Positions 5,986 through 22,613 of a stretch of 22,770 bases of DNA are shown here, piece after piece (position 1 is the stretch's first letter; each line of letters begins with the position of its first letter). This stretch comes from a virus, in the IMG/VR virus record IMGVR_UViG_3300017744_000176, positions 1 through 22,770 of that record. One strand, 5' to 3'. The position numbers and the translations under genes were made by a program. The notes beneath the pieces are model-generated. The model saw nothing but the letters and a program-made list of their open reading frames with translations, ran no database searches and was not told the DNA's origin.

Positions 5986-6207
5986 TCACACTGTGCGCCA
6001 GAAACGTACCCCTAAATTTCCACCTTCAATACGTAGTCGGTGTTCCAGCTCCCAGTGTCTATCACAGAATATCTCGTTTACCTGCTTTACTGCTTCGTCA
6101 GTGTTTACGCAGGGTACAAAGATGGAAGAACCGATAGCCATGTTCCCCCAGTTAACTTCTATTGTCACGCCATCAGGCGCTAAGTCATACGTTCTCAATA
6201 CCTTCAT
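5986..6207 (-). CDS. Hypothetical 73-aa phage protein, last gene of the leftward block
   Basis: The ATG sits inside the last codons of the PrimPol-helicase gene (23-nt overlap, different frame), so expression is probably by translational coupling; no separate strong Shine-Dalgarno sequence is seen. The product is a plausible folded small protein with mixed strand and helix, and motifs such as EVNWGNMAIGSSIFVP and WELEHRLRIEGG. No known domain is recognised. It is followed by about 55 nt and then the convergent hairpin. The + strand frame across the same bases has poor, Cys/Ser-rich composition and looks like the shadow. Confidence 0.65.
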   Translation of the reverse strand: MKVLRTYDLAPDGVTIEVNWGNMAIGSSIFVPCVNTDEAVKQVNEIFCDRHWELEHRLRIEGGNLGVRFWRTV

Positions 6208-9004
6208 TGTCAGGGTCTACATCAAATTTCATAACTATTGTGTCAGCGGCAGGTAACTGTAGGTTCGTACCCTTAGTTAGCCGTATCTTCTTACGTCTGC
6301 CCTCACATTTCTTCATAATCTCGCTAACCAAGTGTGCGTAGTTAACCTGCAACTCACCACACCACTCTTTAAGAGGTTTTGGTTTAACAAAAAAGAGTTT
6401 CGTGTCAGTCTCATACCGTGCAACCAATCTGCCTCGTGCAATCTGTTCTGGTACTACGTGTTCGTCAAGGCCGTTACCCTGTACCCCACGGTTATCTACC
6501 GTGCTTTTTATCTGGATAATATAGCTTATGTTTTCGGCAAAGAAGTCGCCCATGATGTCAGTTACTGAACCAGTCATCTCGTTTAGTCCTCGTTTGTTTT
6601 GTGAAACAAGGTCAGTAGTTGCCCACTTAAAGACTTTCTGAACATCAAAATCATGAAGCCCAATCTTCTTGGCAATCAGTAGCCCTGATATTGTGGCAGT
6701 CATTGTATCAGACCAATAACGGTTCTCTGAGGTTAGCTGAGCCTTTTCGTCAACGCGCTTCTGAATCTGTTTTACTATGCGCTTTGTCTCTTCGACGTTA
6801 TTCATAATCCACTGTATGTGAGGTATACCTGCGTGTCCGTAGTTCTCAAATACGTTAGTCTTGAACGTGTCTTGTATCTCTTTATCCTTTACCTCGTCGA
6901 ATATCCTATCCACTCGACACTCAAGAATACGCTGTGCTTCTGCTTTCGGCATAGCTTTACCACGGCTAACGGTCTCAATGATAGATGCGTTTGCGGTGTA
7001 CTGCATTAACAGGTTCCACTCTCTACCTTGATGCCGTTCCACGTTAGCACTGGCGGTCATACGCCCTCGCTGTTTACCAGACGTGCCTTGATAGATAAGG
7101 TCAGACATCTGGCGTGGTGTTAAGTTAGTCACCTCGTCAATACCTGTCGGTAGACTGTGCATTACCTCGGCACGGTTCATCTTGAATGCAACGCTATCGG
7201 CTTTATCCAAAACAAGTTTCTTTGGGTTGCCCCATATACCTGCCGTGGCGTACATCATCATAGTTTTACCTGTACCAGACTCGTTGTTTATGAACGCTAC
7301 TGCCCCACAGTTTTCATTCAAAAATTCCATCAGAGGACTACCAAAGCCCATACCAATGGCAAATTGTTGTAATAAAAACCTATCGTCGTTCCATAGTTCC
7401 AAGTTCTCACGCCACGCTTCGTATGTACCCTTGGCCTCAAAGTGTGGAAAAAATCCCACCGTCTGATTAGCAGGTGGGTTAAATTCTATGCAGTCAGGTT
7501 TGACTTTCTGATTACCTAGAATAAACGTATCTAACTTATCATTTACCCAACCAAACTGGACGTGGGCTTCGTCTGCTGTACTGGTGGCTTGTAATTCATC
7601 TACCCAACTTAGTGTGTATGACATCAGTTCATCCATCTTCTTAATTGCAACGCCCTGAGACGATAGTTTCTTTCGGAACTCTTCGCTTGACGTGACTGAA
7701 CTCATCGGCAGTGTAAACTCTTGCACCCCGTCTCGGGGAAGGTGCAGACGCATAACCAACGACTCGCCCAGCTCGGGGTCCTTGATTCGTTTAACAACGT
7801 ATAAGTCGTTATGGTATATTCTCTTCTCGTCTACATCGCCGTCTTCATTGGTGGTACGTACATACACACCACCGTTTGACCCACGCACATAGGGTGGTGG
7901 GTACTTAGGTATAACATGGGTTGGCTCGTCTTCTTCGATGCTTTCCGCTACATAGTTACCTTCATCGTCAGTCTCAGCTTCACGTAACTTCTTACCGAGT
8001 ACGATGGGAGACTTGATAGCACCCCATTGAGGACAATCTCTACAGATGTCAGGGTTGTACTCGTCAAAACGTGCGCATGTATATGGGCCTTTTATCTGCT
8101 CCATCTTACGTTGCGTGTCTTCTGGCGTGTACTCTGGATGCCCCTTCGACATCAAGTGAATGGCTTTATCCCCATCAGTGCAGAACTTCGCAATAGATAG
8201 CCCTGCCCTCCACAATGGTTCGCTCATGGTCTCTTGGTTTCGGACTATGTATTTAAGCTGTTCACACCCTTCACCTCGTTGGGTCTTAATCAGTATGTCC
8301 TTAAACAGGTTTTCCTGATTGCCCATAAGGTTCTGCATGGTCGCGCTGAGTTCCCTAGGTATGTTTTTTGTGGGAACTGGTATCGACTCGGAACCGAGTA
8401 ATCCTGAGAATGTGTCAAAATCGACGGTCTCAAACTTAGCGGTCAAGCCAAAAAAGCCCACGTCTGACGGGGGCTTGGTCTTGTAGTTATGTGTGTGAGG
8501 AACTCTTAACACACGTGCGGCGTCTGATGTGACCGCCGGATCAGCGTAGAAATTTTGCTGTGCACACAATCTTTTAAGACGCTCCGCGACAGGCAACCAA
8601 TCATCCAAGCATACCGATTCTTCTAAAAACCAGTACACGTGTATGCCACGCCCCGAATTAACCATCGTTGGTTTCGGTAGTTTGTTGTGCTTACAGAAAC
8701 GCCGTAGTGCCTGTATAGCCTGTTCTTGATTTAAAAATTCTTTGCTCGGACCACAATCCAGATCGAGGAAGAAAGAGTTTAGCCTCTTTACGTTATCGAC
8801 TTTACGTGAACCTGCTTGATCAAACGTAGCTAGTCCGTAATAAACATCGTATCCTTCTTTATCATAATTGTGGGCGGCATCGACAACGGCATCTATTGAG
8901 TCATAGAACTTCTGTGCTTTGCGTTCGTCACTTGATCGTGCCGCAAATACACAGTAGTAGCCCCCACTACTCAGTGCCTTCGATAAAAATGTTTTTGTTT
9001 CCAT
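6185..9004 (-). CDS. Primase-polymerase fused to a DUF927-like helicase
   Basis: Likely makes primers and unwinds DNA at the phage fork. Numbered from ATG 9004 (939 aa): an AEP/PrimPol domain with the catalytic acidic pair in FFLDLDCGP (D81, D83), motif II SGRGIHVYW (117-125) and a DPAVTSDAARVLRVP segment (155-169); a Cys cluster C310-x10-C321-x2-C324 followed by IKSPIVLG, typical of the PriCT/zinc linker of these proteins; then a P-loop ATPase with Walker A ESGTGKT (575-581) and Walker B-like GIDEV (621-625), resembling DUF927 helicases. An in-frame ATG at 9016 would add four residues. I chose 9004 because GGGTGG lies 4 nt upstream of it, while 9016 has only a weak AGG. A strong hairpin lies just upstream (9026-9059). 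Confidence 0.88.
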   Translation of the reverse strand: METKTFLSKALSSGGYYCVFAARSSDERKAQKFYDSIDAVVDAAHNYDKEGYDVYYGLATFDQAGSRKVDNVKRLNSFFLDLDCGPSKEFLNQEQAIQALRRFCKHNKLPKPTMVNSGRGIHVYWFLEESVCLDDWLPVAERLKRLCAQQNFYADPAVTSDAARVLRVPHTHNYKTKPPSDVGFFGLTAKFETVDFDTFSGLLGSESIPVPTKNIPRELSATMQNLMGNQENLFKDILIKTQRGEGCEQLKYIVRNQETMSEPLWRAGLSIAKFCTDGDKAIHLMSKGHPEYTPEDTQRKMEQIKGPYTCARFDEYNPDICRDCPQWGAIKSPIVLGKKLREAETDDEGNYVAESIEEDEPTHVIPKYPPPYVRGSNGGVYVRTTNEDGDVDEKRIYHNDLYVVKRIKDPELGESLVMRLHLPRDGVQEFTLPMSSVTSSEEFRKKLSSQGVAIKKMDELMSYTLSWVDELQATSTADEAHVQFGWVNDKLDTFILGNQKVKPDCIEFNPPANQTVGFFPHFEAKGTYEAWRENLELWNDDRFLLQQFAIGMGFGSPLMEFLNENCGAVAFINNESGTGKTMMMYATAGIWGNPKKLVLDKADSVAFKMNRAEVMHSLPTGIDEVTNLTPRQMSDLIYQGTSGKQRGRMTASANVERHQGREWNLLMQYTANASIIETVSRGKAMPKAEAQRILECRVDRIFDEVKDKEIQDTFKTNVFENYGHAGIPHIQWIMNNVEETKRIVKQIQKRVDEKAQLTSENRYWSDTMTATISGLLIAKKIGLHDFDVQKVFKWATTDLVSQNKRGLNEMTGSVTDIMGDFFAENISYIIQIKSTVDNRGVQGNGLDEHVVPEQIARGRLVARYETDTKLFFVKPKPLKEWCGELQVNYAHLVSEIMKKCEGRRKKIRLTKGTNLQLPAADTIVMKFDVDPDNEGIENV

Positions 9005-9025
9005 TGGTCCACCCATTGCCTAAAC

Positions 9026-20903: not shown

Positions 20904-21821
20904 TTAAAGGTCAATTGATGGAAGTGCTTTGATGACATCATCGACAGCACGTTTAGTTTCTGCGCGAAGGTAGCCATCCTCGCGTAGTGCGTCTGGTGTA
21001 ATACCACGTAGGGCATCGTCCAGTTTCATGCGCATCGCTGACATCTGACTGTCACCTGTTACGTTGCACACATCCAGTAGTTCGACGAGATCGACCACGT
21101 TGGATACTAGCGTGTCACGAAACACTTTCTTCTGTTCGTGATCGGCATAGTCGAGACGCTCTGACATCTTGGTCAATGCTTTGAACGCTCGTTGCCATAC
21201 GTCATTCATGGCGTTGGTCAGTTGCTCGGAGTAGTAGGTCTGGTAGTGCTCACGTACTAACTCGTTACCCTCGTTGCCAATGTCCACCCTGAAATCACCT
21301 GCATCTGGCAGTGGTATATATGAGAAGCGAAAGTTGAACTTGTTGGCTATGTGCTCCGCCGATGGATAGTCATCGTGTGAAAACAAGTTGCCAAGCCGTG
21401 CCTGTGACTGACTGATCGCCCAGTCGTACGTGTCGATAAACTTCTGAACCATTCGGCTGTACTCGTTCTGAACCTCGGTCATAGCTTGGTGGTATTTGAA
21501 ATACTGAGCAGTCGGTAGTAATCGAAGGCCAGTATCAGACCACGGCATTGTCATGCTGTAATGTAGGTTACGAACATTAGCGGTAAACTTCTGTACCGCC
21601 GTGAGTTCATCGCAGTTGCCCAGTAACTTCTTGTGGACGTTTGCGATACCTGCATCGGCATGGTTGGTTGTGGTGACATCTTTTGATGCACGCTTGTCTA
21701 GCTTGCGCCCAGTCCATGTACTGATGCTTAACTCTACCAACATAGATGAAGAGCCAATGGATGGTGCTGTTACCGCAGGTTGATTTGTTAGTGCGGCACT
21801 AACATTGCTTTCGTGTGACAT
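20904..21821 (-). CDS. DUF3150 family protein, first gene of the MoxR-VWA operon
   Basis: 305 aa. After a variable N-terminus (about 25 residues), the pattern SMLVELSISTWTGRKLD, KKLLGNCDEL, LRLLPTAQYFKYHQAMTEVQ, a helical region with YDWAISQSQARLG, and SYIPLPDAGDFRVDIGNE matches my memory of DUF3150, a helical family found beside MoxR ATPases and VWA proteins. Its role is unknown. The gene order DUF3150, MoxR, VWA strongly supports the assignment. AGGAGAACGAC precedes ATG 21821. Codons 7-12 contain palindrome copy 5. A near-consensus promoter lies about 100 nt upstream. Confidence 0.8.
   Translation of the reverse strand: MSHESNVSAALTNQPAVTAPSIGSSSMLVELSISTWTGRKLDKRASKDVTTTNHADAGIANVHKKLLGNCDELTAVQKFTANVRNLHYSMTMPWSDTGLRLLPTAQYFKYHQAMTEVQNEYSRMVQKFIDTYDWAISQSQARLGNLFSHDDYPSAEHIANKFNFRFSYIPLPDAGDFRVDIGNEGNELVREHYQTYYSEQLTNAMNDVWQRAFKALTKMSERLDYADHEQKKVFRDTLVSNVVDLVELLDVCNVTGDSQMSAMRMKLDDALRGITPDALREDGYLRAETKRAVDDVIKALPSIDL
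21787..21803. repeat. GTTAGTG-CGG-CACTAAC palindrome, copy 5
   Basis: Perfect copy within the coding start of DUF3150, 18 nt inside the ATG, shared with copy 4 over 24 nt including the TTGATTT flank. Confidence 0.8.
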
Positions 21822-21853
21822 GTCGTTCTCCTGTGTGACATTTAGTTTGTGTT

Positions 21854-21913
21854 GTTGGTGAGGGGTTACCTGTCATAGGACAAGAGGGGGAACCGTTGAA
21901 ACCCCCCACCAAC
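21854..21913 (-). promoter_or_regulatory. Structured 5' leader with competing hairpins
   Basis: Transcribed from the promoter at 21920-21948, the RNA would begin near 21913 with GUUGGUGGGGGG. That 5' end can pair with CCCCUCACCAAC (21854-21865, 11 of 12 pairs) or, over its G run, with CCCCC at 21886-21890. The two folds exclude each other. The leader ends about 32 nt before ATG 21821. This may be a stability, attenuation or ligand-sensing element; no known riboswitch class is recognised. Confidence 0.5.
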
Positions 21914-21919
21914 ATAACC

Positions 21920-21948
21920 ATTATGCCACAAATAGCGAGACATGTCAA
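21920..21948 (-). promoter_or_regulatory. Sigma70-type promoter for the MoxR-VWA operon
   Basis: On the - strand: TTGACA, a 17-nt spacer, then CATAAT (5 of 6 to TATAAT). The expected start site is near 21913, about 90 nt upstream of ATG 21821. This is the best host-type promoter I see in the window, so this operon is likely transcribed early by host RNA polymerase. Confidence 0.75.
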
Positions 21949-22004
21949 ATGATGTCAGGACGTGTGTAGAAGTGTAGTGTTCTGTTGTTTCGTGTAAAGT
22001 TCTT

Positions 22005-22336
22005 ATATTGTTCGGAAGCAAGTCATTGATTTATATACAATGTTCTAATGTTCGCTAATTTGGGAAGTGAGAACTCGCTCGGAGGGGGGCCGACGAGGGC
22101 GTACAGAAACGTACATTGTTAGTGCCACACTAACTTTACCTATTGTATATAACTTTCTTTAAAACGAACAATATATATAAATAATAAGAAAACTAAACAA
22201 ACTAAAAAAGCTGATAGGCAGGTTATGCTAGCGCATGGCGGTAATTGCCACTGGTTGGCACCAAACGCAAATGTACGATTGATAACTAGATAAAACGAAC
22301 ATTAGCCGAACATTACGAACATTAGCGCGAACAAAG
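22005..22336. other. Candidate replication origin with iterons and AT-rich block
   Basis: No credible gene lies between 21822 and 22588. CGAACATTA-type 9-10-mers occur at 22045-22054 (- strand), 22296-22305, 22307-22315 and 22316-22325, with the variants CGAACAATAT at 22005-22014 (- strand) and 22165-22174 and CGAACAAAG at 22328-22336. Between them 22141-22210 is strongly AT-rich (TATATATAAATAATAAG and A runs), suitable for unwinding. Small inverted repeats (TGCCA-N5-TGGCA) lie near 22248. This matches the layout of iteron-type origins, but no initiator protein other than the HTH candidates and PrimPol is evident. Confidence 0.5.
22118..22134. repeat. GTTAGTG-CCA-CACTAAC palindrome, copy 6
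   Basis: Perfect copy beside the AT-rich block, upstream of the operon promoter and therefore not in its transcript. This points to a DNA-level rather than RNA-level role for the family. Confidence 0.8.
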
Positions 22337-22368
22337 GCTCAGCGCGACACAAGTAACTGGTATCGTGT

Positions 22369-22385
22369 GTTAGTGTGACACTAAC
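22369..22385. repeat. GTTAGTG-TGA-CACTAAC palindrome, copy 7
   Basis: Perfect copy in the first spacer of the 101-bp repeat array, 4 nt past the first 30-bp unit. Confidence 0.8.
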
Positions 22386-22469
22386 AAAGCCAGCCCGCTG
22401 CGCTATACGCGATCATGTGATGACGTGCACACGTGAGGCTCAGCGCGACACTAGGAACTGGTATCTTGT

Positions 22470-22487
22470 GTTAGGGTCATCACTAAC
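22470..22487. repeat. Degenerate GTTAG..CACTAAC palindrome, copy 8
   Basis: GTTAGGGTCATCACTAAC at the equivalent place in the second spacer keeps the right arm exactly and most of the left arm, with one extra central base. The third position holds a different palindrome, CGTGTTAACACG (22518-22529). Confidence 0.6.
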
Positions 22488-22567
22488 AGTGTGCAGCCCG
22501 GTAGTCATAGTGTGTTACGTGTTAACACGCACACACGAGGCTCAGCGCGACATGAGGAACTGGTATC

Positions 22568-22586
22568 GCCTGCGCAAAACGCAGGC
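22568..22586. other. Hairpin beside the terminator
   Basis: GCCTGCG and CGCAGGC form a perfect 7-bp stem with a CAAAA loop, directly after the third direct repeat and 2 nt from the terminator's A/T run. It may reinforce termination or mark the edge of the repeat array. Confidence 0.5.
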
Positions 22587-22588
22587 AC

Positions 22589-22613
22589 AAAAAAACCCCG
22601 CCGAAGCGGGGTT
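22589..22613 (-). terminator. Strong rho-independent terminator
   Basis: On the - strand: AACCCCGC-TTCG-GCGGGGTT stem followed by seven T residues. It sits 5 nt after the stop of the partial membrane gene and isolates it from the origin-like region. Confidence 0.92.

Follow-up and report, generated by a model that had tools for sequence, protein, structure and literature searches.

The question raised by the 22.8-kb virus record IMGVR_UViG_3300017744_000176, analysed here from positions 1 to 22,770 (the window), is what function is served by a long stretch without genes that lies upstream of an early operon. The early genes of the window are all on the minus strand, and the gap runs from the start of the minus-strand DUF3150 gene (21821) to a minus-strand terminator (22613-22594). 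An initial annotation of the sequence had described about 640 bp without a gene, and such a gap is real, although it is larger (21822-22593). Judged from its sequence, the region is most probably an iteron-type replication origin of a tailed phage of about 60 kb, a reading that is given a probability of roughly 0.83. The likely origin proposed by the initial annotation is thus supported, with a single iteron cluster at the locus in relatives, the same order of parts and a plausible initiator encoded.

21822-22593, no strand: non-coding, predicted origin and regulatory region, upstream of the minus-strand early operon, its order of parts kept in relatives
22594-22613, minus strand: intrinsic terminator of the gene preceding the region

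In the window and in four relatives (L002, L006, L009, L035) the matching 660-bp stretch holds no open reading frame of 50 amino acids or more, and the open reading frames seen there in other relatives are unlike one another; a coding region was rejected. Searching Rfam gave no match for a known RNA element, and DNA similarity to named phages gave nothing beyond a 37-bp match to the terminator.

The iterons lie within the region as follows.

22296-22304, plus strand: iteron CGAACATTA, exact
22307-22315, plus strand: iteron CGAACATTA, exact
22316-22324, plus strand: iteron CGAACATTA, exact
22328-22336, plus strand: degenerate fourth iteron CGAACAAAG, its TGTTCG part aligned in relatives
22165-22173, plus strand: single iteron-like copy CGAACAATA within the A+T block, one mismatch, aligned in relatives
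22046-22054, minus strand: inverse iteron CGAACATTA, second arm, exact
22039-22045, minus strand: inverse iteron core GAACATT
22006-22014, minus strand: inverse iteron-like copy CGAACAATA, one mismatch, CGAACATTA in many relatives

The repeats in both orientations that had been noticed at the outset are confirmed, with three exact copies on the plus strand (22296-22324) and one on the minus strand (22046-22054), and at least two copies face the three forward iterons from across the A+T block; one more exact copy lies inside a gene, at 21571. The spacings of the forward iterons are mostly 9 or 11 bp, two such steps being about two helical turns. One 9-mer is found four times in a 640-bp stretch, counting both strands, a number that was reached by only one in 1000 dinucleotide shuffles of the region. 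Conservation was followed in ten relatives whose near-complete genomes measure 58-66 kb. The 7-mer core AATGTTC/GAACATT was counted there in 700-bp windows, and in all ten the best window is this locus (2-12 copies), with the second-best holding at most one copy. The initial annotation had named as refuting a lack of iterons in close relatives that share the replication genes; the cluster stands at the homologous place in every one of the ten, and the reading survived this test. Short direct repeats of one sequence are gathered at a single locus, and they are conserved alongside the replication genes. In divergent relatives the copies have changed together, to AATGTTCC in G005 and G006 and to AATGTTAC in L071 and L075. 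Chance repeats were rejected on the shuffle test and on the clustering at a single locus in relatives.

Between the two facing sets of iterons lies the DNA that would be opened, and an IHF-type site is situated among the inverse iterons.

22131-22230, no strand: A+T-rich block with the lowest stability of any 100 bp in the window, probably the unwinding element
22019-22031, minus strand: IHF-type site AATCAATGACTTG (consensus WATCAANNNNTTR), conserved, between inverse iterons

The AT-rich block of the initial annotation proves to be the 100 bp of lowest stability in the window, about 5 standard deviations from the mean, with the least stable 50 bp at 22146-22195, and an easily melted block adjoins the repeats. 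In five of ten relatives (G001, G002, G004, G011, G012) the genome-wide minimum of stability over 100 bp likewise falls at the origin. Of the 76 relatives with sufficient sequence upstream, 49 have the exact IHF consensus, which in almost every one of the 49 is 83-93 bp from the -35 box on its upstream side and varies in the N positions; in the window it occurs only twice, in the origin region and inside a gene. IHF is known to cooperate with the initiator in the origins of pSC101 and R6K (PMC5043065). No DnaA box TTATNCACA is found in 21822-22593, nor any sequence within one mismatch of TTATCCACA, and a box is present in only one of 73 relatives; the region lacks this mark of a DnaA-dependent origin.

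A promoter and a set of palindromes that are probably operators are found in and beside the region.

21920-21948, minus strand: sigma-70-type promoter TTGACA-17-CATAAT of the DUF3150/MoxR/VWA operon, aligned in relatives
22369-22385, no strand: palindromic operator GTTAGTG-N3-CACTAAC
22118-22134, no strand: palindromic operator GTTAGTG-N3-CACTAAC
21787-21803, no strand: palindromic operator GTTAGTG-N3-CACTAAC, just within the first gene of the operon

Read from right to left, as the early operon runs, the terminator is followed by three GATACCAGTT...CGCG..GAGCC elements with interspersed palindromes and then by the iterons TAATGTTCG, of which there are four, including the degenerate copy. After these come a single-copy stretch, the A+T-rich block, which holds a further iteron, then a palindrome and the inverse iterons, and beyond them the IHF-type site, a further inverse iteron, the promoter and the operon encoding DUF3150, a MoxR ATPase and a VWA protein. 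The order is kept in 18 aligned relatives and in divergent ones with altered iterons. The parts, their order, their conservation and uniqueness in the genome, and the protein domains are properties of the sequences themselves. It could be argued that the region controls transcription only, the TGTTC repeats being activator or repressor operators of the operon and replication starting elsewhere, since a good promoter adjoins the inverse iterons and palindromic operators that are present across the early genes are interleaved with the iterons. However, the forward iterons are some 350-380 bp upstream of that promoter, past the melting block and in two facing sets, and the iteron core, unlike the palindromes, does not recur in front of other early genes, with no other 700-bp window holding more than one copy. 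Such a purely transcriptional function is considered improbable.

A candidate for the protein that would read the iterons is encoded in the same early module.

6185-9016, minus strand: candidate initiator of 943 amino acids, PrimPol, DUF927 helicase and C-terminal winged helix

The N-terminal primase is of the AEP (archaeo-eukaryotic primase) type, with Z 16.0 against the PrimPol of cyanophage S-2L, and Pfam DUF927 is recognised in all nine of nine homologues, giving the protein a helicase core of that type. A search of the PDB with a single sequence (phmmer) found no match, and only the profile of the nine homologues found structures, of which there were two, Rep of a Staphylococcus aureus pathogenicity island (SaPI; 8tch, 2e-14) and Cch of the staphylococcal cassette chromosome mec (SCCmec; 5dgk, 2e-11), both of them self-loading helicases. 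The best matches of the whole AlphaFold2 model are the same and cover its residues 405-935, Cch at Z 20.7 and SaPIbov1 Rep at Z 17.8. When the C-terminal 174 residues are folded alone they form a winged helix in the model, whose best match is SaPIbov1 Rep 452-556 (Z 8.2, 2.8 Å, 93 residues), followed by Cch (8.1) and by TcpK (7.2), a winged helix whose structure was determined on oriT DNA. In its profile and predicted fold the protein is therefore like SaPI Rep and SCCmec Cch, C-terminal domain included. SaPI Rep and its SCCmec counterpart read an iteron origin through their C-terminal domain (PMC7581432). As the fold resembles the part of Rep that recognises the origin, the 943-residue protein is the best candidate for the iteron reader, and on the models it probably has this role. 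A comparison by eye of iteron variants with the C-terminal residues of the initiator was not decisive.

Alternatively, the region may be an origin at which a different phage protein, such as DUF3150 or a protein of about 200 amino acids, recognises the iterons and the PrimPol-helicase is recruited secondarily. The operon adjoining the origin starts with a DUF3150 protein of unknown function, and the rapidly diverging protein of about 200 residues is encoded just upstream of the origin. No DNA-binding domain is recognised in DUF3150, however, whereas the winged helix of the helicase matches the origin-recognition part of SaPI Rep, and a different reader is held to be unlikely.

With the PrimPol-helicase as initiator, a mechanism can be proposed in which the forward 9-bp array (CGAACATTA, spacing 9 and 11 bp) and the inverse set flank an A+T-rich unwinding element, with the IHF-type site between the inverse iterons probably bending the inverse arm. 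The PrimPol-helicase, from the same early module, would most likely bind the iterons via its C-terminal winged helix and load itself, melt the A+T block without DnaA, unwind the DNA and prime for the phage's own family A polymerase. We infer the binding of the iterons, the melting, the initiation at this region and the direction of replication from the arrangement of these parts.

There are a number of observations that weigh against this reading of the region. Over the whole window the 9-mer with at most one mismatch is in weak excess (10 found, 5.7 expected), so it is local clustering and conservation that carry the case, and the exact cores in the best window number only three in G001 and two in G004, with few exact iterons in G003 and G004. 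The least stable 100 bp lies elsewhere in G003, G005, G006, G009 and G010. The model of the whole candidate initiator has a low mean confidence (predicted local distance difference test, pLDDT, 59) and a large global root mean square deviation from Cch and Rep (14-16 Å), the C-terminal Z of 8.2 is moderate given that TcpK, another DNA-binding winged helix, reaches 7.2, and the gene starts some 13 kb from the origin, unlike the situation in SaPIs; the winged-helix recognition domain is present by predicted fold only. The GC skew that had been proposed as a check does change sign near the region in G002 and G003, the two records with terminal repeats, but early and late genes also diverge there and the other change of sign is near the convergence of genes (+15 to +25 kb) and not at the antipode (+30 kb). 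As the skew follows gene orientation it gives no independent evidence for an origin, and it was rejected as proof of one.

The proposed origin can be compared with several known systems. The SaPI replicons (SaPIbov1 Rep) and SCCmec Cch and Cch2 share a DUF927-type helicase with a C-terminal winged helix and a short-iteron origin, but in this case the protein combines the helicase with a PrimPol of the AEP type and belongs to a phage of about 60 kb with its own DNA polymerase, and whilst the SaPI origin is directly downstream of rep, the phage origin is about 13 kb upstream of the gene at 6185-9016. In lambda, O recruits host DnaB through P, whereas the initiator in this phage would be its own helicase. 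The two have in common a phage-encoded initiator, tandem iterons adjoining an A+T-rich block and an active promoter nearby, but the lambda iterons, which are those of the O protein (PMC5043065), are within the O gene and the phage iterons are intergenic. Iteron plasmids (pSC101, R6K gamma, P1, F) are similar in their near-helical iteron spacing and A+T-rich opening region, and pSC101 and R6K in their IHF site (PMC5043065), but differ in that the phage region has no DnaA boxes, has iterons in two facing sets and would be served by an initiator that is itself helicase and primase.

The Pseudomonas phages KPP25 and Rollin are analogous in layout, each with a gene-poor region in which 8-9 copies of a short iteron lie by A+T-rich DNA or by the DNA of lowest stability in the stretch examined, although the iterons themselves are different. 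KPP25 (L264, about 1018-1660) has TGTTACGA eight times in 600 bp, adjoining the least stable 100 bp of that stretch, and Rollin (start of record OR577172.1, L268 1-600) has AAAGGTAG nine times, with A+T-rich DNA and an IHF-type site. The PrimPol-helicase homologue of Rollin is 28% identical, and in KPP25 there is no match to the initiator of the window at an E-value of 1e-5. The KPP25 region also has CCCGCGTGGCACTAAGGCTCCAGC three times. Rhizobium RHph_TM phages encode a homologue of the PrimPol/DUF927 helicase that is annotated as a 'putative integrase protein' (L270 22240-25323; MN988472.1 42239-45322), a name that on the sequence is probably wrong; an origin was not found in the part of these phages examined.

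In IMG/VR, 338 stretches encode relatives of the first gene of the operon, and the origin and initiator proposed here would provide something concrete and testable for a large group of uncultivated marine phages. The likeness suggests that the initiator-helicase logic of staphylococcal islands may also drive phages of about 60 kb carrying their own polymerase, and since cultured Pseudomonas phages share the layout, laboratory testing is possible.

The part of the region nearest the terminator is occupied by a third class of repeat.

22539-22567, minus strand: GATACCAGTT..CGCG..GAGCC element, copy 1
22437-22465, minus strand: GATACCAGTT..CGCG..GAGCC element, copy 2
22336-22364, minus strand: GATACCAGTT..CGCG..GAGCC element, copy 3, adjoining the iterons

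Long direct repeats of 49 nt are present here in three copies with a spacing of 101-102. The element, compared between genomes by consensus only, is about 30 bp and on one strand, and consists of GATACCAGTT, a short variable spacer and CGCG..GAGCC. It is found in 73 of 81 regions, with at least two copies in 69 and never on the opposite strand, and in most relatives there are 2-4 copies between the upstream terminator and the iterons. It could act as a second protein-binding site or as the promoter of an unrecognised polymerase, or it could belong to a transcript. The palindromes and long direct repeats reported by the initial annotation are real, but they are site classes separate from the iterons with which they had been pooled.

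Repeat arrays are typical of centromeres too, and in G002 the late genes, the large terminase among them, begin 1-2 kb away, which would suit a centromere for partition or a pac site for packaging. Yet no prophage or plasmid form is found among bacterial genomes, a search of GTDB genomes for prophages and hosts having returned no MoxR ATPase relative. The iterons, moreover, stand on either side of a melting block and an IHF-type site, at the head of the replication module rather than of the terminase gene. A site of this kind is very improbable as the function of the region.

The palindromes also occur outside the origin region. The window contains seven perfect copies of GTTAGTG-N3-CACTAAC, spread over the early genes (12792, 17083, 18204, 20884, 21787, 22118, 22369), and eight sites are found with at most three mismatches where 1.5 would be expected, many copies lying shortly before early genes. 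A palindrome set is present in 79 of 80 relatives and its sequence differs, with at least eight types that include GGTAGTC-N4-GACTACC, TTAGGGAATTCCCTAA, TGTATACATATGTATACA, TTATAAC-N4-GTTATAA and GTTATAC-N3-GTATAAC. G001, most of whose proteins are closest to those of G002 and G012, has its palindrome in common with the more distant G003 and G004. One dyad is thus spread across the early genes and differs among close relatives, as are the immunity operators of lambdoid phages and cluster A mycobacteriophages, and the palindromes are probably repressor operators whose specificity, judging by these patterns, has apparently been exchanged between lineages. A regulator was sought by presence or absence and by similarity across genomes, and no gene family clearly tracked the palindrome type. 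Hairpin promoters of the N4 type were set aside, as several palindrome classes are perfect through the centre and leave no free loop. Both 3-nt and 4-nt centres occur within one genome in G003 and G004, which is unusual for a rigid dimer site.

Tentatively, and with the odds rather against it, the origin of this abundant phage group may also be a control hub, which the PrimPol-helicase opens by way of a slowly changing iteron code, while overlaid palindromes of repressor type, swapped among close relatives between at least eight specificities, time replication and the early genes as a replication-immunity switch, and the third element of about 30 bp on one strand, which has no known counterpart, marks the origin in most members. 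Operators that differ among close relatives raise the question of immunity-like control in phages without visible lysogeny, where such a switch would lie if the proposal were true.

The fast-evolving protein of about 200 amino acids and unknown family is the product of the first early gene that precedes the origin, at 29858-30496 in G002 and with homologues in other relatives, and in several genomes a palindrome is located just upstream of this gene.
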